Under the pieces are notes generated by a model. The model saw nothing but the letters and a program-made list of their open reading frames with translations, did not search any database and had not been told where the DNA came from. Below, piece after piece: positions 18 through 25,402 of a stretch of 25,402 nucleotides of DNA. Location: positions 1 to 25,402 of IMG/VR virus record IMGVR_UViG_3300031510_000035, one strand, 5' to 3'. Within the stretch, counting starts at the first letter, position 1, and each line of letters begins with the position of its first letter. The DNA comes from a virus. The translations under genes were made by a program, and so were the position numbers.

Positions 18-620
18 ATGTCAAAATATTTTAGATACTATCCACAAACACAATATGCTTTTGCTAATAGCAGTTTTACGATTGAGAAGTCCGTAAAGAA
101 CATCTCTCTTAAAACAACTTTGATGGATGGATTATCGCAAGATGACCCATATGCATTTCTTCGTTATACAATATCGGAAGATGAGAAAGCAGAAGACGTT
201 GCAGGCTTCTACTATGATGATCCGTCTATGAGTTGGTTAATATATTTTGCTAACGATATTGTTGATCCATACACTCAGTGGCCGAAGTCGTATGAGAATT
301 TTACTGAGTATTTCAGAAAAAAGTATGCAAGTCAAGCACTTCCTACAGGCACTGATGCTATCGTATGGGGGCAAAATACAACTAGAACTGATAATATCGT
401 TCATTGGAAAAACACCGATGATGAGACCATGTTGATTAGCCCAGATTCATATGTAAGAGCACAGACATTCAATAGTGATTTTGTTGCTGGCGAATGGACT
501 GCTGTTCGTCGTTTTGATTACGAAATGGAGGAGAACGAAACCCTGAGAAATATCCTTCTCGTGAACTCTTCTTATTCAATCACAGCATTAGAAAATTTGA
601 GAAGTATATTAAATGGCTGA
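18..620 (+). CDS. 53: Baseplate wedge subunit, T4 gp53 family
   Basis: Structural protein of the phage baseplate. In T4, gp53 joins the wedges around the hub during tail assembly. The 200-residue length is close to T4 gp53 (about 196). The family signature is plain at residues 61-89: an aromatic YYDDP segment, then W73-L-I, N79, I81-V-D-P84 and W88-P, followed by a KY motif near residue 102. The start at 18 is supported by a purine-rich AGGGG at 5-9, eight bases upstream. The 3' end overlaps the next gene by 8 nt, which suggests translational coupling. Bases 1-15 read in frame to a TAA and could be the end of an upstream gene, but too little is visible to call it. The gp27-like and gp5 genes that follow support the assignment. 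Confidence 0.9.
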   Translation: MSKYFRYYPQTQYAFANSSFTIEKSVKNISLKTTLMDGLSQDDPYAFLRYTISEDEKAEDVAGFYYDDPSMSWLIYFANDIVDPYTQWPKSYENFTEYFRKKYASQALPTGTDAIVWGQNTTRTDNIVHWKNTDDETMLISPDSYVRAQTFNSDFVAGEWTAVRRFDYEMEENETLRNILLVNSSYSITALENLRSILNG

Positions 621-1950
621 ATATAACACATTTGACGTTGGATTTGGTGCAATTGCTAAGGCGACACTCAGTCGTTATGGTGGCTATGTGAATCGTATTA
701 CTGAAAAAGTATCATTCGATATATCAAACTATATCACTGAATTATACTTTTCAGAGTCGATTAATGCACCAGTCATGATGGGTCAAATGAAGTTGTTAGA
801 TAGTTATGGTCTTATTGATAACTTCCCCATTCTTGGGGAAGAAATATTCAATCTTACTTATGTTGATTTTTTTGGCAAGGAAATATCTCAAGAGTTTTTA
901 ATTTATAGTATAAGTGATGCTGTACCTGGAGAACAACAAAAATTTATGTACTACACTTTGAAGTTTGTATCTGCACATCATTTTCTAGATGCGAGTAGAA
1001 AGGTTCAGAAGAGTTATGAAGACAAAACTATCAAAGAGATGATTCAATTAATATTCGATGAATATTTAGTTGATGATATAAGATTTCCAAAGACTACTAA
1101 CGAAATTGAGATTGAAGATACTGCTGGGGAACAAACGATTGTTATACCTTCTTTGCATCCTATTGAAGCTATCACCTTTCTATCAAGAAGGGCATTCTCT
1201 GATGTTAATAAGAGTTCTAACTATTACTTCTATCAGACACGAGAAAAGTTTAAGATGAAAACTCATGAGCAAATGATAAAAGATGGTACAAAAAACGCAA
1301 TCGAATATACTTATGATGCAGCATTGCTCGCAAATGATATTAAAGACAGGTCTGCTGGTATGCATAATTTACTAGGTTTAAAAATACCCAATAGATTGAA
1401 TACCATAAGAGAGCTTGCTTCTGGCGCACAGTTAACTGATGTTATTGAAATAGATTTTTTAAACAAGCAGATGCTACATAATCCATACACTTACTCCGCT
1501 ACGGATTATACTCATAATGAAAAACCTCCTATCACGCTTCCACACACTGAAAAATTTAGACAAGACTTCTTTGAATTAGTTGATGGGACAGCGCTGGCAC
1601 GTCCATCAAAATCACATATGGTTTTTGTAGATTCTGATAGACCAAATCAAAGATATGTTGATATAATTGCGCCAAGGGTATCTAATCTCTACTATTACAA
1701 CGAATTTACACTGGAGGTGGAAATTTACGGTAGAAATGATCTTTTTGCTGGAGATATTATCAAATTGAACATATATGAGTTCGCACAAATTGTTGATAAT
1801 AAACAGCCAGAATTTAACAAAGGATTTTCTGGGCATTGGTTAGTTAATACTATTGATCATATTATTGATATTGATAAAGTATATAAATGTAAATTAAAAT
1901 TATCAAAAGATTTGCCCAAAGGTGATCGTGAGGTTCAGAATAATGGCTGA
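613..1950 (+). CDS. 27: Baseplate hub protein, gp27-like
   Basis: Likely the trimeric hub ring on which the gp5 needle sits, through which DNA passes. No single diagnostic motif is visible. The assignment rests on the family layout: an N-terminal beta-rich part (about residues 30-130) with a membrane-piercing-hub-like run of alternating hydrophobics; a helical segment near 135-155 (KTIKEMIQLIFDEYL); a middle part beginning HPIEAITFLSRRA near 180; and a C-terminal barrel ending with GHWLVNTIDHIID near 410-425. The order parallels T4 gp27, with 445 residues against about 391. It overlaps gene 53 upstream and gene 5 downstream by the same 8-nt ATGGCTGA junction. Being next to gp5, its physical partner in T4, is strong context. 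A generic gp44/gpD-type hub protein is the alternative name for the same role. Confidence 0.78.
   Translation: MAEYNTFDVGFGAIAKATLSRYGGYVNRITEKVSFDISNYITELYFSESINAPVMMGQMKLLDSYGLIDNFPILGEEIFNLTYVDFFGKEISQEFLIYSISDAVPGEQQKFMYYTLKFVSAHHFLDASRKVQKSYEDKTIKEMIQLIFDEYLVDDIRFPKTTNEIEIEDTAGEQTIVIPSLHPIEAITFLSRRAFSDVNKSSNYYFYQTREKFKMKTHEQMIKDGTKNAIEYTYDAALLANDIKDRSAGMHNLLGLKIPNRLNTIRELASGAQLTDVIEIDFLNKQMLHNPYTYSATDYTHNEKPPITLPHTEKFRQDFFELVDGTALARPSKSHMVFVDSDRPNQRYVDIIAPRVSNLYYYNEFTLEVEIYGRNDLFAGDIIKLNIYEFAQIVDNKQPEFNKGFSGHWLVNTIDHIIDIDKVYKCKLKLSKDLPKGDREVQNNG
1930..1933 (+). promoter_or_regulatory. Ribosome binding site deciding the gp5 start
   Basis: GAGG lies nine bases before the ATG at 1943. It sits inside the 3' end of the gp27-like gene. 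An in-frame GTG at 1922 would add seven residues (beginning MIVRFRI), but it lies upstream of this site and the added residues do not look like the family, so 1943 is preferred. Confidence 0.6.
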
Positions 1951-3241
1951 AAAAGGTTTTAGAAATTTACTTTGGTTTATGGGCGTCGTAGAACAGCGAG
2001 ACGAGCTGGATAGGCTTGGGCGTGTTCGTGTTCGTTGTTTTGGTATTCACCCGGACAGTAAAGAAGATGTCCCTACACATACTTTACCTTGGGCAATTCC
2101 TATTATTGGTAGTTATGATTTCAACTATAAGCCACCACTTGAAGGGTCGTGGGTGTTCGGATTTTTTCTTGATGGTGATGATGCTCAACATCCAATGCTT
2201 CTTGGTATTATGCCCGGTATGCCTACGACGTTTCCTGATTCTACTCAAGGATTCAATGCAAGTAAAGATAACAATCCTAAACCAGAGAATGCATACAGCC
2301 CAGATATATCTAGACTTGCAAGATCTGAAGAACTTAGCGAAACTCATGTAGTAACACAGCACATCACAAAAGAAGATATTGAACCTAAACCTCCATATAA
2401 TGCTAGGTATCCTCATAACAAAGTACAGGAAACTGAGTGTGGCCACATTATGGAATTCGACGATACACCGGCATCTGAAAGAATTAACATTCGACATAGA
2501 AAAGGCACATTTCTTGAAATTGGACCAACTGGTACACAGACAAACAAGATTGTTGGTGATTCTGTAACAATAACTGAGAGAAACGGCAAAGTGCTAATAA
2601 AAGGTGCGTCTGATGTTACTATCAGAGGAGCATCTAATATCACTGTTGAATCTGATTGCAACTTGAATGTCGATGGTAATATGACAACAACTGTACACGG
2701 CGATTATAGATTAAATGTTGCTGGTGGTATTTACATGAACTCTGGTGATACTTTCTCACAAAAAAGTTCATCTATCACACAAGAAGCTTATCTCGATGGT
2801 TACAATCTCTATGCCGAGGAGAACGTTGTAACTCAATCAGGAAAAGGTAATATTCATACTACCGCAACAACGGGTTTCATTTCAGCGTATGCTAAAACGG
2901 ACCTAAGATTCGAGAATGGAGCTAACACATATTTCAATACAACGGGTAAATATAATATCAAGTCTGCTAATAATATTGCTATTGAATCTGGCACCGATAG
3001 TAAAATTGATTTAAATACTAATGGTGCAGTTGAATTTGACCCAGGATATAGTGGATACGTTAGAGGTATTCTCACCAGTTATACTAAACCATCTGGTAAA
3101 AGATCTTCGTTAAGACCACAGAAAAAACTTAATCCTATCGCTAGAAAGTTTCCAGTAGTAACAAAATTTAAAACTCAAGAATATTCATCAATTATGGACG
3201 ATGAATCAGTTGGCCATTCTAATGAAGATGAGAATTACTAA
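1943..3241 (+). CDS. 5: Baseplate hub spike gp5: OB-fold plus beta-helix, no lysozyme domain
   Basis: Needle of the baseplate that punctures the outer membrane. With the ATG start the protein has 432 residues. Residues about 10-95 form the gp5/VgrG OB-fold (GVVEQRDELDRLGRVRVRCFG, then PLEGSWVFGFFLDGDD and HPMLLG). Residues 167-197 carry the typical GHIMEFDDTPASERI and GTFLEIGPTG linker. Residues about 205-370 are short alternating strands rich in D, N, G, T and V, as in the triple-stranded beta-helix needle. T4 gp5 is about 575 residues and has a lysozyme domain between OB-fold and needle. Here only about 70 linker residues (96-166) occupy that place and no lysozyme-like catalytic pattern is visible. 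The last 60 residues after the helix are basic then acidic, of unknown role. It overlaps the gp27-like gene by 8 nt; the next gene starts 2 nt after its stop. Confidence 0.9.
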   Translation: MAEKGFRNLLWFMGVVEQRDELDRLGRVRVRCFGIHPDSKEDVPTHTLPWAIPIIGSYDFNYKPPLEGSWVFGFFLDGDDAQHPMLLGIMPGMPTTFPDSTQGFNASKDNNPKPENAYSPDISRLARSEELSETHVVTQHITKEDIEPKPPYNARYPHNKVQETECGHIMEFDDTPASERINIRHRKGTFLEIGPTGTQTNKIVGDSVTITERNGKVLIKGASDVTIRGASNITVESDCNLNVDGNMTTTVHGDYRLNVAGGIYMNSGDTFSQKSSSITQEAYLDGYNLYAEENVVTQSGKGNIHTTATTGFISAYAKTDLRFENGANTYFNTTGKYNIKSANNIAIESGTDSKIDLNTNGAVEFDPGYSGYVRGILTSYTKPSGKRSSLRPQKKLNPIARKFPVVTKFKTQEYSSIMDDESVGHSNEDENY

Positions 3242-3243
3242 TT

Positions 3244-5637
3244 ATGTCTTTAACGTCAATCAAGATCAAGACTATCTCAGCATTTGAAATTGCTAATAAG
3301 ATGGCCGCTGGAGAAACTCAATCCGCTGTAGCAGCACTCAACTCTATTATACCTTCTGCCGCTTTCCCTTTAGATCAAATGTTCTCTTTGAAAGAAAGCT
3401 TGCAAACTACTATAGAAGGTCTGTCGGTTAGTGATGCAATTGGGCTATCTTCACTAACAGCATCATTAGAAACAGCATCAAGTGCAGATATTTCTACAAT
3501 TCTATTTCAATCAGGCGTCAATCCGGACACGTTTTCAGTAGAAAATTTTAATCTCGACCTTTCTTCGTTGACAGATTTTCAAAGTAGTGCAATGGGAATT
3601 GCAGCAAATTTAAAGGGTGGTTGTGACGCACTTTTAGAATTAGAAAGTTTGGCTACTGGTGCTGGCGATTTATTTGGCGATCTTGACCTTGATTTGGATC
3701 TTGATTTGGATCTTGATTTGGACGTTGGTAAAATAATTAAACCAATATCTGAGTATATGGAAGAATTGGCAAAGAGTGTAGAAGATGCTGCTGGAGCTGT
3801 TGCAGAGCAATTTGATCAGTTAGCAAGTGTAAAGTTTGACAGTATTGCAGGCCAAATAGGATCAGCTGCCGAAGCTGTGGTGGGAGCAATAGCAAATGAT
3901 GTTGAATCCATAATAAGTGATGTTCAGTCATTAGCTGCATTTGATTCTGGATCAGTTGACATATCAGGGTTTCTCGAATCTTTAGACTTAGAAGCGAAAG
4001 CAATAACAGCGGCATTCGAAAGTTCTATTGAAAATATTCTTGGAAGTGTTCAGCCAGATTTATCTGCGCTTAAAGATTCCGTTAGTAATTGTTTTCAACA
4101 TACTAAAAAGGTGAATGAAGCTACACTTAAAAATGTTGAGGCCTCAATTAAAGACTTGGGCGAAGGACTGCCAGAGGTTTCCGAAGGGGCTTTAATAGCT
4201 ATACAAAATAAATTATTACAAACCACAGGTGAGGTAAAGGCTTTATTCACTGACGATAATAAAAACATAACAAAAGCATTAAGTGCAGCAATCACAAACT
4301 CTATGCATAGCAATAATCCAAATGCTTCTCCGAAGAAGATACTAGCAACAACTGCAAAAATTATTGCGTCAGGAGCAAGAACTCAAGATGAAAAATTAAA
4401 TAAAGCAGTTGGTGAAATTAAAGCAATAGTGAAGGCAGTTCCAAGTTTCGTTTCGGGTGCTGACCGAAAAGCACTTATGGATGCCTCTGCCAGGGCCATA
4501 CCTGATAGGACAGACAGAAACTCACAAGCACAAACCCATAATACTAAAAACAGCATCTATCCAGAAGAATATTTTGGTCTAAGCGACTTTGCTAAACATA
4601 ATTCAGCTAAGATCACTTCCCTCCATCCTATTGTAAGAGATAGAGTTGCTAATGCGGTGAGGTCCTTTGTTTTAGAATATAAAGAAAAAGGAATTGATAT
4701 AAAAATTATAAGCGCCACCAGAACCGTAGAGAAGCAGAAACAACTTCGAAAAACTAATTCACTGGCTGCAAAAAACTCTTGGCATAGTTATGGTGCTGCC
4801 ATTGATATCAACGTATATAAACACAGTAAAAATAAACCCGTTTGGAATTATAATGCTGAGGGTAAGCGGACAACCCCCAATTCTGGTAACATTAAACAAT
4901 ATTATACCGGCATCGCAAGACTACATTTTGCAAAACATGATATGTTGAATAAACTTGATGGTACGTGGGGTAATAGTAAAACCATGGATCCAAATCACTT
5001 CATGCCTGTAGAATGTTGGGGGTTGAGTCCTGCAACCCCAACGTTGGGGTTGAAGGCTGGCGCAGGAGAGGACAACGGTTTAGCCAAACTGCTCACCCGT
5101 AAACCAATAAAACCACTTGATTTAAGTAGTAATACAGAAAAAAATAATAGCGAAAAAGCAAAACGCAAAGCAGAAAAATTTTACGGTAAATCACTGACAG
5201 ATAAAGAATGGAATTTTTTAGTGCGTGCTACAGTAGCAGAGTCATCGTCTAATCCACAAGAGCAGGCTCAGATAGCTGGGGTTATCTTAAACAGAGCAAG
5301 AACGGGCGGATGGTACGGCGGTAATGTTGTCGCAGTTCTAGAAAAAGATTGGCAGTTTCAGGCAGTAACAGGAGTTGATGCCTTTCCGAAAATTAAGGGG
5401 TTCCAAGGCACTGGACCACATGACAATTTTACTACGCCATCAAGAAATACTATAAATAAAGCAATCGAAGCTATATCAAAAAATATACCGACTTCGGATA
5501 AAAAGTTTTTAAATTTTGCATCTAACAGTCTAAATGCTTATGGCGAAGGTACTAACCCGGGTTTTCGTGAGCAGGTGAGCAACTCGCCTAATTCTAAAGT
5601 TATTGGTGGAACAATATTCGGAACGGTCAAACCATAA
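3244..5637 (+). CDS. Tail-associated cell-wall hydrolase with M15 peptidase and SleB-like domains
   Basis: Probable virion-associated lysin of 797 residues. Residues 1-440 are Ala/Ser/Leu-rich and mostly helical by composition, with a run of alternating Asp-Leu at 146-160; no family is recognised there. Residues about 455-595 match the M15 (VanY / L-Ala-D-Glu or D-Ala-D-Ala) peptidase pattern: S512-W-H514-S-Y-G517-A-A-I-D521 supplies two zinc ligands, and D582-P-N-H585 supplies the catalytic acid and third ligand. Residues about 640-797 resemble the SleB/cell-wall hydrolase-2 fold: candidate catalytic E666 in VRATVAESSSNP, then GVILNRART (679-687) and QFQAV (704-708). It follows gp5 by 2 nt with only a weak upstream AAGATGAG. 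Since gp5 here lacks lysozyme, this protein may take that role at the tail tip. M15 is the surer domain; the exact bond cut by each domain is not determined. Confidence 0.8.
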   Translation: MSLTSIKIKTISAFEIANKMAAGETQSAVAALNSIIPSAAFPLDQMFSLKESLQTTIEGLSVSDAIGLSSLTASLETASSADISTILFQSGVNPDTFSVENFNLDLSSLTDFQSSAMGIAANLKGGCDALLELESLATGAGDLFGDLDLDLDLDLDLDLDVGKIIKPISEYMEELAKSVEDAAGAVAEQFDQLASVKFDSIAGQIGSAAEAVVGAIANDVESIISDVQSLAAFDSGSVDISGFLESLDLEAKAITAAFESSIENILGSVQPDLSALKDSVSNCFQHTKKVNEATLKNVEASIKDLGEGLPEVSEGALIAIQNKLLQTTGEVKALFTDDNKNITKALSAAITNSMHSNNPNASPKKILATTAKIIASGARTQDEKLNKAVGEIKAIVKAVPSFVSGADRKALMDASARAIPDRTDRNSQAQTHNTKNSIYPEEYFGLSDFAKHNSAKITSLHPIVRDRVANAVRSFVLEYKEKGIDIKIISATRTVEKQKQLRKTNSLAAKNSWHSYGAAIDINVYKHSKNKPVWNYNAEGKRTTPNSGNIKQYYTGIARLHFAKHDMLNKLDGTWGNSKTMDPNHFMPVECWGLSPATPTLGLKAGAGEDNGLAKLLTRKPIKPLDLSSNTEKNNSEKAKRKAEKFYGKSLTDKEWNFLVRATVAESSSNPQEQAQIAGVILNRARTGGWYGGNVVAVLEKDWQFQAVTGVDAFPKIKGFQGTGPHDNFTTPSRNTINKAIEAISKNIPTSDKKFLNFASNSLNAYGEGTNPGFREQVSNSPNSKVIGGTIFGTVKP
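3679..3723 (+). repeat. 12-bp tandem repeat coding for alternating Asp-Leu
   Basis: Repeats of GATCTTGATTTG, with small variation at the start and end, encode fifteen residues of strictly alternating D and L (146-160 of the hydrolase). The repeat is perfect enough for slippage to change its length in steps of four residues without breaking the frame. Confidence 0.85.
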
Positions 5638-5673
5638 AAATAATCTTAAAGAAGAAATACGCTGATTAAATAT

Positions 5674-5681
5674 TATAAATA
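5674..5681 (+). promoter_or_regulatory. T4-type late promoter (TATAAATA)
   Basis: Exact match to the T4 late promoter -10 consensus TATAAATA, in the longest non-coding gap of the window (5638-5706) and just before gene 25. T4 late promoters need only this element, read by the phage sigma factor gp55 with the gp45 clamp and gp33. A start about 6-8 bases downstream would leave a leader of about 20 nt that includes the GGAG at 5693-5696. It probably drives the gp25-gp6-gp7-gp8 wedge block. Confidence 0.8.
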
Positions 5682-5696: not shown

Positions 5697-5706
5697 ATTG
5701 CTTCAT

Positions 5707-6108
5707 ATGGCAACGCCATTAACACAAAGAGTTGTATACTCGGACTTCTTTACGGACTTGGATAGACATCCAATTCGTAGTACAGTCTTACGCAAAACAA
5801 ATGTTGATGCTGTAAAACAGTCTCTTCGAAATCTTATGTTGACTGATAAAGGTGAGCGTCTATTTCAACCAAATCTTGGTGGCAATATTCGTGCTATGTT
5901 GTTTGAGAATATTACAGCACAGACATTCTTAACGATGCAAGAGCATATACGAGATGTTATCGAAGCACATGAACCAAGAGCAGATGTTATTGATGTAGTT
6001 ATTGCTCAAACTTCGCAAGAGCATGAAGTTCAAATCAGCATCGTATTTCGTGTTGTCAACGTACAAGAACCCGTTACGTTAGAATTACTTTTAGAAAGAG
6101 TGAGATAA
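5707..6108 (+). CDS. 25: Baseplate wedge subunit gp25
   Basis: Small wedge protein that sits at the junction of baseplate and sheath. T4 gp25 is the sheath-initiating wedge core component, related to T6SS TssE. The length of 133 residues from the ATG matches T4 gp25 (132). Family marks are YSDF near 11-14, a helical stretch VKQSLRNLMLT at 36-46, the E50-RLFQPNLGG strand, and the conserved E89-P-R91 core at the end of the second helix. It follows the only clear late promoter of the window and has a good ribosome binding site. The next gene starts 1 nt after its stop, so gp25 and gp6, which bind each other in T4, are co-translated from one message. Confidence 0.95.
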   Translation: MATPLTQRVVYSDFFTDLDRHPIRSTVLRKTNVDAVKQSLRNLMLTDKGERLFQPNLGGNIRAMLFENITAQTFLTMQEHIRDVIEAHEPRADVIDVVIAQTSQEHEVQISIVFRVVNVQEPVTLELLLERVR

Positions 6109-19870: not shown

Positions 19871-22800
19871 ATGGCCAAAGCATATACCAATGTAAACTCT
19901 ACAACAGGAACTTTTGCTGGCTGGTTGAGTAAAGCAAACGAACTTTACTATGATATGTCAACGATCATAGTAACAGCAAAAGCAGTCTCTCTGGCTAATT
20001 TAACGAATGAGTCCACAACGACGGGCAACAGTTACGTTAACGGTATCTTTTCGTCTAATGAATTAGTCGTTAAAACTGCCCTTAGAGGTGGTACTGTAAC
20101 AACCAGTTTTGCAAACTCGCAAACTCTTCTCATTACTTCGAACACACAAATTGGTAGTGGTTCATCGGCCGACAACTTATTCGTATACGGCGATGCAACA
20201 GTTAAAGATGACTTAAATCTTACATCAGATGGGTCAATTGTCTCATTTGGTACTAACTCTGAAATCACATTGACCCACGTTCATGATGTAGGATTAACAC
20301 TAACCCATGTTACTGCTGGTGATAATCTTCCTGTTGTTCTACAACTTAAATCAGAAGAAGATGTTGTTGAGGCTAATGAAGTTATTGCTTCTCTCGAATT
20401 TGCTGCTGGCGACTCAGATGGTACAGACGGTGCAACGATTGCTGCGGGTATTCATGCAATCGCTGAAGGAGCATTCTCTGCTAGTTCCAATGCGACTAAA
20501 TTGGTCTTCACTACAGGCGTGTCTGAAACTGCTGCCTCTAGCGCAACTGCTAAAGCAACACTAAGTTCTATTGGTGATTTCCAAGTCGCTGGTGATTTAG
20601 TGCTCAAAGATGGCGGTCTTATTGGTTCTGCTTCAGACTTAGATGCATTAAGCATTTCTTCTGCTGGTGTGGTTAACTTCACTGCTAGACCTACTTTTGC
20701 TGCTTCCCTAACGATTCAAGACGGTGGTTCATTAGGCTCTGCTAGTGACCTTGATGCTGTTACGATTAGTTCTGGTGGTGTAGTTGCAGTTACTGCTACA
20801 ACTGTATCAACTTCAAAAACAACTGGTGCCTTAACGGTTGCTGGTGGTGCTGGCGTTGCGCTTGACCTAAGCGTTGGTGATGACCTTAGACTGATTAGTG
20901 ATGCAGCGGTTCTAGGATTTGGCGCTGATGGTGATGTGACTCTGACTCACGTTGCTGACACTGGTCTGTTACTCAATAGCACAATGGCTATTCAGTTCAA
21001 CGATGCAAGCCAGTCTATCAATGCGCCTACTAATGCTACTTTGAATATCAATGCTACTGATGAGATTGAACTTAACGCAACTCTCTTAGATGTTAATGCA
21101 AATATCAATGCTAGTGGAACTTACACTGGCGCTGGTCTTATGACCACTGGCGGTAATATCATTATACCTGATGCTGGAACGATTGGTTCTGCTTCAGACT
21201 TAGATGCGATTGCTATCGGTGCTGATGGTGATGTAACTTTAACACAAGACTTAGAACTCCAACATGACGCTGCTACAATATCCTTTGGCGCTGATGGTGA
21301 TGTGACTCTAACCCACGTTCATAATACTGGTATCCTATTGAATAGCACAATGGCTATTCAGTTCAACGATGCAAGTCAATCTATCAATGCGCCTACTAAT
21401 GCTATTCTAGATATTAATGCTACCGATGAGATTGAACTGAACGCAACTTTGTTAGATGTTAATGCGAACATAAACGCAAGTGGAACATACACTGGTGCTG
21501 GTCTTATGACCACTGGTGGTAGCATTATTATTCCTAATGCTGGAACGATTGGTTCTGCTTCAGACACTGACGCAATCTCAATCTCCTCTGGTGGTGTAGT
21601 TGCAGTTACTGCAACGACTGCTTCTAGTGCTGTTAACAACGGAGCACTAACTGTTGCTGGTGGTGCGGGTATTGCTGGCGACTTGTCTATCGGTGATGAT
21701 TTAAGATTCCTTTCTGATGCTGCTGTAGTTTCGTTTGGCACTAACTCTGAAATCACATTGGCTCATGTCCATAATGTTGGACTTACACTAACCCATGTTA
21801 CTGCTGGTGATAATCTACCAATCGTTCTTCAACTGAAATCTGAAGAAGATGAGATTCTAGCAAATGAGGTTATTGCTTCGCTAGAATTTGCCGCTGGGGA
21901 CTCAGATGGTACAGATGGTGCTACAGTCGCAGCGGGTATTCATGCGATTGCTGAAGGAACATTTAGCGCAAGCGCAAATGCAACCAAGTTAGTATTTACA
22001 ACAGGCGTGTCTGAAACTGCTGCCTCTAGCGCAACTGCTAAAGCGACACTAAGTTCAATCGGTGACTTGCAAGTTGCTGGTGACTTGGTTATTAAGGATG
22101 GTGGTCTTATCGGTTCTGCCAGTGACTTGGATGCATTAAGCATTTCTTCTGGTGGTGTGGTTAACTTTACTGCTAGGCCTACCTTTGCTGCTTCTTTGAC
22201 AATCCAAGACGGTGGTTCATTAGGTTCTGCTAGTGATCCTAATGCTGTTACGATTAGTTCTGCTGGTGTAGTTGCAGTTACTGCAACGACTGCTTCTAGT
22301 GCCAATAATAACGGAGCACTAACGGTTGCTGGTGGTGCTGGCATCGCTGGCGACTTGTTTGTTGGAGATAATGTAGATATTACTGGCAATTTAGTTGTAG
22401 ATGGTACTGCTACTTTTGCTGGCAGTGGTAATTTTACGGTCAATAATTCTATTGTTACAACATTGAGTGTTGTTGGCGACACAGATATCGGTGACGCTAC
22501 TTCTGATACAGTTACGATTACAGCAAGAGTTGATAGTGACGTTGTTCCATCATCGGATTCTGCACGAACTCTTGGCACGGACGCCCTTCGTTGGACACAC
22601 GTTTATGCTGATAATGTTCACGGCATTGGCACAACACTCACAGCATTAAATGCTAGTAATATCTCGGATGGCACTATTGCTGACGCTAGACTACCAGCAT
22701 CAATTTCGTCTAACATTACAGGCAATGCTGCAACAGCAACAACACTTACAAGTCTCACTACAACAGTTACAGAACTGAATAAAGTTGATGGTGGTACTGC

Positions 22801-25402
22801 TGCGTCTTCAATCACTGCCGCTGGCGCAGATAGAGTTGTATACAACGATGCTGGTGCAATGAAGCAAGTTGCACTAACAACTCTTGATACATATTTCAGC
22901 GGCACAACAAAAACACTAACGAATAAAACACTTACTTCACCTTCTATTGGCACAGGCTTTACTTTTGACGGTATTACGTTTACTACTGCTCAAACAAGCG
23001 CTGAGACTTTCGCTGATAATGATACATCGTTGATGACCGCTGCCGCTATTGATGACCGTGCAGCAGTAGTAGCACAAGCAACAATTGACGCTGATAGCAC
23101 TCTCATGCAACTTACCGCCGCGGCGGTGAAAACTGCCGGCGATTTAACGTTCAATGATAGTGTTGCTATCAATCTTGGTACAGGCGCTGATACTGAAATC
23201 TTTCATAGTGGTTCACATCTATACGCTGATATCAACACTGGTAACTTCTATATTCGTGACGGCACTGATAGTAATGCTACTGCATTAACATTCGCACCAA
23301 CAACTGGTGCATTAACACTCTGGAATAATGATGCTAGTGATGATGGACCAACACTAACACTAAGGCATAATAGTGCATCTCCTGCTGCGACTGATGAAGT
23401 TGGACAAATATTCTTTCAGGCTGATAATGCTGCTGGTACAAATCACAGCTACGCTTATCTTGATGGTAGAATTGTTGATCCAACAACTGATAGTGAAGAC
23501 GGTAGTCTAACAATCTATACTGTAACAGCAGGCACTAATAGAGCAACAATCAAAGCAGATTCCGGTGTTGCATATCTTTATAATGGTAGTAGCGTTAAAC
23601 TCGCTACTGCTTCTGGTGGCGTAACGATTACAGGCACAGCGACCGCAACAACGTTTAGTGGAGCATTTAGTGGTTCTGGCGCTTCAATCACAGCATTAAA
23701 CGCAAGCAATATTTCATCTGGCACTATTGCTGACGCTAGATTACCAACCACTGCTGTTAAAACGACTGGTAATCAAACTATTGCTGGAACTAAGACATTC
23801 TCATCAACGATTGCTGGGAGTATTACAGGTAGTGCTGCTACGCTAACAACTGCTAGAACAATTGGTGGAACCTCATTTAATGGTAGTGCTAATATTGCTG
23901 TAGCACTTGCTGCAACTGCAACTACGCTTGCGACTGCGAGAACAATTGGCGGCGTATCATTTAACGGTAGTGCTAATATAAATCTACCGGGCGTAAATGC
24001 TGCTGGTAACCAAAGTACATCAGGCAATGCTGCCACTGTAACAAACGGCGTCTATACTACCGGTAATCAGACAATCGCAGGCAACAAAACATTCTCTGAT
24101 ACAACAGACTTTAATGGTGCAGTTACATTAGATGGTGCTACAACATCCTCAACTTCATTTATAGTTGATGGTGGTTATATGAAGTTTGATGACGGTCTTA
24201 GCCTCCGCTTTGGTAGCGACAGTGATGCTGAAATCTATCATAATGGTTCACATCTATACGCTGATATCAACACTGGTAACTTCTATATTCGTGACGGCAC
24301 TGATAGTAATGCTACTGCATTTACATTCATACCATCAACTGGTTCATTAACAGTCTATAATAATGACTCTGGCGCCCAAGGCCCTGACCTAATACTAAAG
24401 AATGATAGTGCATCTCCTGCTTCTAATGATGAAACTGGACAAATATTCTTTCAGGCTGATAATGCTGCTGGTACAAATCACAGCTACGCTTCCATTCAAG
24501 GTCTAATCTCAGACCCAACAACTGATAGTGAAGACGGTATTCTAACAATCTATACTGTAACAGCAGGCACTAATAGAGCAACAATCAAAGCAGCTTCCGG
24601 TGTTGCGACACTCTACAACGCAGGTAATGCTAAACTCGCTACTGCTTCTGGCGGTGTAACGATTACAGGCACAGCAACAGCGACAATATTCGCTGGTTCT
24701 GGCGCTTCACTCACATCATTAAACGCAAGCAATATTTCATCTGGCACACTTGCAAGTGCTAGAATTGCTGATAGTGCTGTAACTAGTGCTAAACTTGGTG
24801 CTGATGCTGTAACTGGTGCTAAGATTGCTGATAATGCAATTAACTCTGAGCATTACACAGACGGTAGTATTGACCTTGCTCATATGTCTGCTAATTCAGT
24901 TGACAGCAACCAGTATGTAGATGGCAGTATTGACCTTGTTCATATGTCTGTTAATTCAGTTGACAGCAATCAGTATGTGGACGGTAGTATTGATCTTGCT
25001 CATATGTCTGCTAATTCAGTTGACAGCAACCAGTATGTAGATGGTAGTATTGATAAAGTTCATCTTGCCGCTGATATCGTTGATGGAACTAAGATTGCCG
25101 ATAATGCAATTGGTGCAGAACACATAGCTGCTAATGCTGTTGGTGCAAGCGAGATAGCTGCTGATGCTGTTGGAGCAAGCGAGTTAAATGTTAGTGGTAA
25201 TGGTTCATCTACACAGTTCTTGAGATCAGATGGTGATGGCTCGTTTACTTGGATAACGCCGACTGATACTGGTATTACATCTGTATCAGTTGCAACTAGT
25301 GGTTCCGGTAACGTGGTGACGGGGCTATCTGTTAGTATTTCAGGTCGTGCATTAACCATAACCCAGACAAAGGGCACCGTGTCAGCTTCTGGTCATAGTC
25401 AC
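19871..25402 (+). CDS. Tail-fibre-like repeat protein, 3' end beyond the window
   Basis: Open from the ATG at 19871 to the last base (1844 codons, no stop), so the gene is incomplete. The start follows the previous stop by 9 nt. The N-terminus (MAKAYTNVNSTTGTFAGWLS, ANELYYDMSTIIVTAK) is the likely virion-attachment part. The rest is Ala/Gly/Ser/Thr/Asp-rich beta repeat typical of phage fibres: ALTVAGGAGIAGDL, GSASDLDAVTISSGGVVAVT, ALNASNISDGTIADARLP, KTLTNKTLTSPSIGTG, ARTIGGTSFNGSANI. Long direct repeats lie at residues 125-311/621-807, 350-443/472-565 and 1109-1260/1454-1605. Four copies of a 20-residue unit (SVDSNQYVDGSIDLAHMSAN type) lie near 1657-1736. The last residues visible are GHSH. 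It probably forms an elongated trimeric fibre carrying the receptor-binding tip downstream. I saw no chaperone or tip domain within the window. Confidence 0.85.
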   Translation, partial: MAKAYTNVNSTTGTFAGWLSKANELYYDMSTIIVTAKAVSLANLTNESTTTGNSYVNGIFSSNELVVKTALRGGTVTTSFANSQTLLITSNTQIGSGSSADNLFVYGDATVKDDLNLTSDGSIVSFGTNSEITLTHVHDVGLTLTHVTAGDNLPVVLQLKSEEDVVEANEVIASLEFAAGDSDGTDGATIAAGIHAIAEGAFSASSNATKLVFTTGVSETAASSATAKATLSSIGDFQVAGDLVLKDGGLIGSASDLDALSISSAGVVNFTARPTFAASLTIQDGGSLGSASDLDAVTISSGGVVAVTATTVSTSKTTGALTVAGGAGVALDLSVGDDLRLISDAAVLGFGADGDVTLTHVADTGLLLNSTMAIQFNDASQSINAPTNATLNINATDEIELNATLLDVNANINASGTYTGAGLMTTGGNIIIPDAGTIGSASDLDAIAIGADGDVTLTQDLELQHDAATISFGADGDVTLTHVHNTGILLNSTMAIQFNDASQSINAPTNAILDINATDEIELNATLLDVNANINASGTYTGAGLMTTGGSIIIPNAGTIGSASDTDAISISSGGVVAVTATTASSAVNNGALTVAGGAGIAGDLSIGDDLRFLSDAAVVSFGTNSEITLAHVHNVGLTLTHVTAGDNLPIVLQLKSEEDEILANEVIASLEFAAGDSDGTDGATVAAGIHAIAEGTFSASANATKLVFTTGVSETAASSATAKATLSSIGDLQVAGDLVIKDGGLIGSASDLDALSISSGGVVNFTARPTFAASLTIQDGGSLGSASDPNAVTISSAGVVAVTATTASSANNNGALTVAGGAGIAGDLFVGDNVDITGNLVVDGTATFAGSGNFTVNNSIVTTLSVVGDTDIGDATSDTVTITARVDSDVVPSSDSARTLGTDALRWTHVYADNVHGIGTTLTALNASNISDGTIADARLPASISSNITGNAATATTLTSLTTTVTELNKVDGGTAASSITAAGADRVVYNDAGAMKQVALTTLDTYFSGTTKTLTNKTLTSPSIGTGFTFDGITFTTAQTSAETFADNDTSLMTAAAIDDRAAVVAQATIDADSTLMQLTAAAVKTAGDLTFNDSVAINLGTGADTEIFHSGSHLYADINTGNFYIRDGTDSNATALTFAPTTGALTLWNNDASDDGPTLTLRHNSASPAATDEVGQIFFQADNAAGTNHSYAYLDGRIVDPTTDSEDGSLTIYTVTAGTNRATIKADSGVAYLYNGSSVKLATASGGVTITGTATATTFSGAFSGSGASITALNASNISSGTIADARLPTTAVKTTGNQTIAGTKTFSSTIAGSITGSAATLTTARTIGGTSFNGSANIAVALAATATTLATARTIGGVSFNGSANINLPGVNAAGNQSTSGNAATVTNGVYTTGNQTIAGNKTFSDTTDFNGAVTLDGATTSSTSFIVDGGYMKFDDGLSLRFGSDSDAEIYHNGSHLYADINTGNFYIRDGTDSNATAFTFIPSTGSLTVYNNDSGAQGPDLILKNDSASPASNDETGQIFFQADNAAGTNHSYASIQGLISDPTTDSEDGILTIYTVTAGTNRATIKAASGVATLYNAGNAKLATASGGVTITGTATATIFAGSGASLTSLNASNISSGTLASARIADSAVTSAKLGADAVTGAKIADNAINSEHYTDGSIDLAHMSANSVDSNQYVDGSIDLVHMSVNSVDSNQYVDGSIDLAHMSANSVDSNQYVDGSIDKVHLAADIVDGTKIADNAIGAEHIAANAVGASEIAADAVGASELNVSGNGSSTQFLRSDGDGSFTWITPTDTGITSVSVATSGSGNVVTGLSVSISGRALTITQTKGTVSASGHSH
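20243..20803 (+). repeat. Long direct repeat A, copy 1 (fibre gene)
   Basis: A 561-bp unit (187 codons), from SFGTNSEITLTHVHDVGLTL to GVVAVTATT, repeated in frame at 21731-22291 with an offset of exactly 1488 bp at both ends and no net indel. Differences are mostly synonymous or conservative. Similarity carries on more weakly past the end through GALTVAGGAG. Confidence 0.9.
20918..21199 (+). repeat. Direct repeat B, copy 1 (fibre gene)
   Basis: A 282-bp unit (94 codons), from FGADGDVTLTHV through MAIQFNDASQSINAPTNA to AGTIGSASD, repeated at 21284-21565 with a constant 366-bp offset. The pair lies between the two copies of repeat A. Confidence 0.9.
21284..21565 (+). repeat. Direct repeat B, copy 2 (fibre gene)
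   Basis: Second copy of the 94-codon unit, with a handful of changes (for example N to S before IIIP, and D to N in IIPDAG against IIPNAG). Confidence 0.9.
21731..22291 (+). repeat. Long direct repeat A, copy 2 (fibre gene)
   Basis: Second copy of the 187-codon unit. Small changes are visible, such as EEDEILANE for EEDVVEANE and SASDPNAV for SASDLDAV. Confidence 0.9.
23195..23650 (+). repeat. Direct repeat C, copy 1 (fibre gene)
   Basis: A 456-bp unit (152 codons), from EIFHSGSHLYADINTGNFY to ITGTATAT, repeated at 24230-24685 with a constant 1035-bp offset. It contains a 77-bp tract (23210-23286) identical in both copies at nucleotide level, next to clearly diverged stretches. Confidence 0.9.
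24230..24685 (+). repeat. Direct repeat C, copy 2 (fibre gene)
   Basis: Second copy of the 152-codon unit. Identical tracts (24245-24321, and the segment from about 24440 to 24490) alternate with a diverged centre (NNDSGAQGPDLILKNDSA against NNDASDDGPTLTLRHNSA). Confidence 0.9.
24841..25080 (+). repeat. Four-copy 60-bp tandem repeat (fibre gene)
   Basis: Unit of exactly 60 bp (20 codons) encoding SVDSNQYVDGSIDLAHMSAN-type repeats. The first copy is degenerate (INSEHYTDGSIDLAHM), the middle two are nearly identical, and the fourth diverges at its end (GSIDKVHLAADIV). It is followed by shorter related units (GAEHIAANAVGASEIAADAV). Confidence 0.95.

Follow-up and report, generated by a model that had tools for sequence, protein, structure and literature searches.

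A putative baseplate lysin of a T4-like phage joining an M15 peptidase to a SleB-like domain apparently captured from another phage

Why a phage should carry two predicted wall-cutting domains on one protein, encoded immediately behind the gene of a spike without a lysozyme, is the question raised by a 25,402-bp fragment of a marine T4-like phage (the window, by which we mean the whole stretch of DNA analysed). The phage's relatives belong to marine and cyanophage-like T4 groups. The window holds genes for gp53, a gp27-like hub protein, gp5, the open reading frame (ORF) at 3244-5637, gp25 (Table 1) and gp6, and further genes encode fibres and proteins resembling gp7 and gp8. At 19871-25402 lies a fibre-like ORF that contains long internal repeats and runs for 1,844 residues or more until the contig edge cuts it. 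According to the original prediction, ORF 3244-5637 would encode a two-bond tail lysin that may have arisen when the lytic function was moved out of gp5 and doubled.

Table 1. Features of the window that surround or make up the putative lysin gene
Feature	Position	Strand	Evidence
Baseplate wedge gp53	18..620	+	Pfam Phage_gp53 31.7 bits; phrog_232
gp27-like hub protein, without lytic domain	613..1950	+	phrog_350 E 8.8e-65
gp5 spike, OB and trimerisation/beta-helix, without lysozyme	1943..3241	+	Pfam Gp5_OB, Gp5_trimer_C; phrog_430 E 1.3e-75
Putative tail lysin, 797 aa: helical region, M15, SleB-like	3244..5637	+	
Helical N-terminal region, residues 1 to ~429	3244..4530	+	predicted long helices, low confidence
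M15 peptidase domain, residues 438-593	4555..5022	+	motifs, Pfam, profile matches
Putatively acquired DNA cassette: linker, SleB-like domain, stop, 22 nt donor-like 3′ flank	5094..5659	+	blastn to L049
SleB-like (Hydrolase_2-like) domain, residues 635-797, putative catalytic E666	5146..5634	+	
Apparent remnant of a ribosome site and start codon, AAAGAAGAAATACG; L049 has the intact form AAAGGAGAAATATG	5648..5661	+	
TATAAATA, T4 late-promoter-like, native gp25 leader, common to relatives	5674..5681	+	
Baseplate wedge gp25	5707..6108	+	Pfam GPW_gp25 56.4 bits

The protein encoded between gp5 and gp25

The gp5 ORF opens with a GTG at 1922, and the start at ATG 1943 (protein beginning MAENGFRN) was taken from the relatives; the gp25 ORF opens with a TTG at 5698, and the ATG at 5707 is the likelier start. 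ORF 3244-5637 begins with an ATG 2 nt past the gp5 stop at 3241. Its product comprises, in order, a helical N-terminus, an M15 zinc-peptidase domain and a C-terminal SleB-like domain; the length, the spacing and the position of every M15 and SleB residue named in the original prediction were confirmed. The helical region is 47% identical to that of the relative L007. At about residues 147-162 the protein contains an Asp-Leu repeat run (DLDLDLDLDLDLDLD), where the relatives have a single DLD.

The M15 zinc-site motif (H-x6-D, D/E-x2-H) is complete, with H514, D521, D582 and H585, and is kept in the relatives. As had been expected of an M15 peptidase, the domain scored above the Pfam cut-off for the VanY-like family Peptidase_M15_4 (26.4 bits; cut-off 25), and it also scored above that for DUF5715 (40.4 bits; cut-off 26.8). 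A profile made from the window, three relatives and the Methylophilales phage Melnitz found its best matches among solved structures in the endolysin LysB4 (6akv, E 1.5e-6) and the L-alanyl-D-glutamate peptidase 2vo9 (E 8.6e-6), and because of these matches we offer L-Ala-D-Glu as a guess at the specificity. The full-length structure prediction was poor in the helical and M15 parts, with low pLDDT over the M15 domain, and placing the helical region from it was given up since the model was too poor. The same fusion gene is present on a second contig (L001), which differs at 5 of 7,734 bases; one of these differences changes an amino acid in the fusion ORF. A one-off chimera is therefore unlikely.

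The SleB assignment of the C-terminal domain is weak by Pfam alone and firm through its homologues. The domain contains E666, GVILNRA at 679 and QFQAV at 704. Against Hydrolase_2 it scored 19.2 bits within the whole protein and 22.7 bits alone, short of the curated cut-off of 27, and for this reason we call it SleB-like and not a Hydrolase_2 member by itself; searches of PHROGs, NCBIfam and the PDB with the window protein alone also gave no support for SleB. Scans with single protein stretches matched only the same phage, and the full set of SleB sequences, once aligned, proved too diverse to serve as a query. The window paired with Pseudomonas phage endolysins led to L049 (IMGVR_UViG_3300028925_011917, another T4-like phage), and the window paired with L049 led to 35 loci, among them the phage's own contig L001 and, again, the contig of L049. 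More than 30 other viral contigs carry the domain.

In a 29-row alignment E666 and the NR are invariant, and QFQAVTG and further glycines and aromatics are conserved; all 29 aligned members match Hydrolase_2, and the closest homologue, in L049, reaches 38.3 bits and so exceeds the cut-off. When a profile was built from 28 phage homologues with the window left out, it detected the window at E 1.9e-40, the E-value being scaled to 100,000 sequences. The best PDB matches of the SleB profile are the SleB catalytic domains 4f55 (E 0.0015) and 4fet (E 0.0016), and E666 aligns with the glutamate of 4f55; the catalytic glutamate of SleB has been described as essential for transglycosylase activity (PMC12331253). 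AlphaFold2 modelled the domain with a mean pLDDT of 84.9. The Hydrolase_2 match looked for on the strength of the original prediction thus failed for the window domain by itself and stood once its homologues were considered.

The position behind gp5 in related phages

In the window gp5, Pfam found OB and trimerisation domains only and no lysozyme domain, so a T4 gp5-type tail lysozyme is lacking, as had been claimed; the same search detects an SLT domain in a related gp5. The Pfam search found no hydrolase domain in the gp27-like protein either.

The proposed move out of gp5 did not survive comparison with the relatives. In the six nearest (L007-L012), whose gp5 is 71-73% identical to that of the window, an M15 protein already lies after gp5: L007-L009 encode a 622-residue helical-M15 protein and L010-L012 encode the helical and M15 parts as two genes, in each case without SleB. 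M15 genes also follow gp5 proteins that have a glycan-cutting domain of their own. In L025, L028, L037 and L038 gp5 ends in an SLT domain and the next gene encodes an M15_3 protein, and in phiM12 a muramidase is annotated on gp5 with an M15 gene behind it; in L031, L033 and L035 gp5 is without SLT and the M15_3 gene is still there. In Sinorhizobium phages (phiM12), as in the six nearest relatives, this position is normally filled by an M15 protein, and the presence of that protein with or without a glycan-cutting domain on gp5 argues that nothing was moved from gp5. Conversely, in L015-L018 and L022-L024 gp5 is short and lysozyme-less and is not followed directly by an M15 gene. Since a lysozyme-less gp5 and the M15 gene each occur without the other among the relatives, we rejected a strict link between the two, and this distribution indicates that the M15 gene does not stand in for a gp5 lysozyme that was lost.

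Two further arrangements were observed around gp5. In phage Melnitz (L003, 5434-8477) gp5 is apparently split, with the OB domain fused to an M15 domain, followed by a beta-helix protein that ends in a second, weakly M15-like stretch. In phage Astolliot (L006, 7970-8974) a PAAR tip protein is fused to an M15_3 peptidase shortly after gp5.

Tail context and apparent origin of the SleB-like end

Judged by open reading frame, the SleB-like domain ends several proteins of ~1,050-1,550 residues and is internal in others of ~550-1,150 residues, and a few short proteins carry it too; many homologues probably sit at the end of, or inside, large tail proteins. By profile, the SleB-like domain of L049 is the C-terminus of gp27 and the L087 protein matches a tape-measure family. 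In L090 the gene lies soon after tail tube and baseplate hub genes, and in L088 it precedes the gene for a gp5-like tail-lysozyme (hub) protein. The large proteins of L071, L077 and L082 gave no PHROG match, so we infer their hub identity. The M15 part has weak PHROG matches to endolysins, and its best-matching solved relatives are endolysins too, which could suggest that ORF 3244-5637 encodes a host-lysis endolysin lying among baseplate genes by chance. We regard this as very unlikely, given the more than 400 helical residues ahead of the enzyme, the fixed place between gp5 and gp25 in relatives and the tail proteins that carry the homologous SleB domain.

The likely source of the domain was visible in the DNA itself. 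By blastn, window 5094-5659 (~570 bp) matched L049 2413-2960 at 69% identity (E 7e-64), whereas gp53 and gp27 of the two phages share only 25-31% protein identity and no DNA match. The matching L049 segment is the end of its gp27-SleB gene, and the match extends 22 nt beyond the window stop codon. There the L049 flank, AAATAATCTTAAAGGAGAAATATG, resembles the ribosome site and start codon of the next gene, and the window reads AAATAATCTTAAAGAAGAAATACG, which leads nowhere; farther on, the window rejoins the gp25 leader with the promoter-like element shared by L007 and L010-L012. On the left, the cassette is joined to the conserved NGLxxLL terminus of the M15 protein, and the relatives stop within ~12 codons of it. 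At the window's site the cassette is absent from L007 and L010-L012, and in a pattern scan for its 3′ flank only the contigs of L049 and L001 matched. Empty sites were also found among relatives of L049, whose downstream DNA is 98-99% identical to that of L049: L104 has the M15-like domain without SleB and L106 has neither. From these comparisons we infer that an L049-like gene was the source from which the SleB end was captured; transfer from an L049-like phage to the window would be the simpler direction, since the flank looks functional only in L049.

Two observations concern the L049 group. The gp27 region carries both domains, the M15-like domain only or neither, at L049 1982-2960, L104 4190-4800 and L106 194-2100, respectively. 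At its end the L049 SleB gene carries a palindromic insertion of 20 bases (GCTGACCGTTCGAACGGTCA, ~2910-2930), which alters the last residues relative to the window.

A glycan cutter that had passed from the phage's own gp5 into the next gene would fit a gp5 without lysozyme, but we find this hardly credible. The gp5 of the relatives is also without lysozyme, yet they have no SleB; the SleB DNA matches that of L049, 3′ flank included; and the SleB profile did not match the SLT or muramidase ends of related gp5 proteins, nor did the converse searches match the window. The relatives and the L049 match already contradict such a relocation.

Pairs of a peptidase and a glycan cutter occur in other phages too. 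In L049 gp27 is split between two genes that overlap: gp27C bears SleB, and gp27N ends in an M15-like domain, a moderate call that draws on the motif and on an hhalign E of 2e-4 at a probability of only 46%. In L107 (5980-8265) a VanY domain is inserted within gp27 (E 1.4e-14) and an apparent SLT domain begins before the contig ends; L108 (5980-7989) and L109 (5986-8016) have a C-terminal SLT on the gp27-like hub, above the cut-off only in L108. L049, L107 and the phages with gp5-SLT and M15 together indicate that the combination recurs on different baseplate proteins; M15-only phages are also common among the relatives examined. We tentatively suggest that the wall-cutting domains of T4-like baseplates may be exchangeable cassettes, set in frame on the ends of several hub proteins (gp27, the post-gp5 protein and gp5), traded between distant phages and gained or lost between near-identical ones.

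Proposed action, precedents and implications

Taken together, these data suggest that the product of ORF 3244-5637 is probably a virion-associated baseplate-hub lysin for entry, assembled by cassette capture. Its wall-cutting domains are encoded within the tail/baseplate cluster, between gp5 and gp25, as expected of a virion-associated lysin, and the pairing of a peptidase with a glycan-cutting domain on one such protein keeps the two-bond tail lysin originally proposed plausible on sequence grounds. The helical region would anchor the protein at the hub or inside the tail. On sheath contraction the gp5 spike would open the outer membrane and the putative lysin would reach the periplasm, where the M15 domain would cut stem peptides (perhaps at L-Ala-D-Glu, as in the nearest solved relatives) and the SleB domain would act through E666 as a lytic transglycosylase on MurNAc-GlcNAc bonds. 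The two cuts together would make a local hole for the tube.

Whether the SleB-like end still cuts was considered separately. Its branch is long (0.94, vs 0.07 for L049), it departs at 5 of 33 otherwise conserved columns, its similarity to L049 is equal across all three codon positions, and a simple count method puts its dN/dS relative to L049 at about 0.9, compared with 0.10-0.33 for other SleB pairs and 0.16-0.36 for M15 pairs. The domain may be adapting to a new scaffold or losing function. These features would also suit a wall-binding or structural tip that is no longer an enzyme, leaving only M15 to cut; we judge this improbable, however, as the putative catalytic glutamate, NR and QFQAVTG are intact, both contigs keep the reading frame open and the fold prediction is a confident one.

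Two wall-cutting activities on one tail protein have precedents; what is new here is the SleB end. The phiM12 'peptidase' (AB690_gp110) also lies between gp5 and gp25 and has a long N-terminal region and a C-terminal M15 domain, but it matches the M15_3 family, has no SleB and follows a gp5 annotated with a muramidase domain. Hub protein gp15 of Anabaena phage A-1(L) has endoglucanase and peptidase domains, both active in vitro (PMC10966104). It resembles the window protein in uniting glycan- and peptide-cutting domains on one baseplate hub protein and differs in its scaffold, which is the hub barrel itself. Predicted endopeptidase and lysozyme domains occur together in some enterococcal tail proteins (PMC10194240); these tail-associated lysins likewise have two predicted wall-cutting activities in one tail protein, but they belong to phages of Gram-positive hosts and to other enzyme families. 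With the SleB/CwlJ spore cortex-lytic enzymes (Hydrolase_2; 4f55, 4fet) the window domain shares the profile match, the aligned glutamate and the NR motif, while scoring below the curated cut-off and falling in a phage subfamily with a QFQAVTG signature. The L049 hub (gp27N-M15 and gp27C-SleB) has the closest SleB domain (52-55% identity in protein, 69% in DNA), likewise paired with an M15-like domain, but on a split gp27 and with a different M15 subfamily. A literature search, with most subscription journals outside its scope, found no report of an M15-SleB fusion or of such a cassette exchange.

The range of cells that a contractile-tailed phage can enter may depend in part on the enzyme with which it opens the wall, and a second domain apparently acquired from the tail gene of another phage illustrates how phages may alter the tools with which they pierce walls. 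The transfer is readable at base resolution, with the likely donor type, the recipient and the empty sites all visible, and the putative lysin would add a compact natural peptidase-transglycosylase pair. A possible exchange of tail lysins by phages to match host peptidoglycan becomes testable. If the cassette reading is true, the tail's wall-cutting tool would turn over much like tail-fibre tips.
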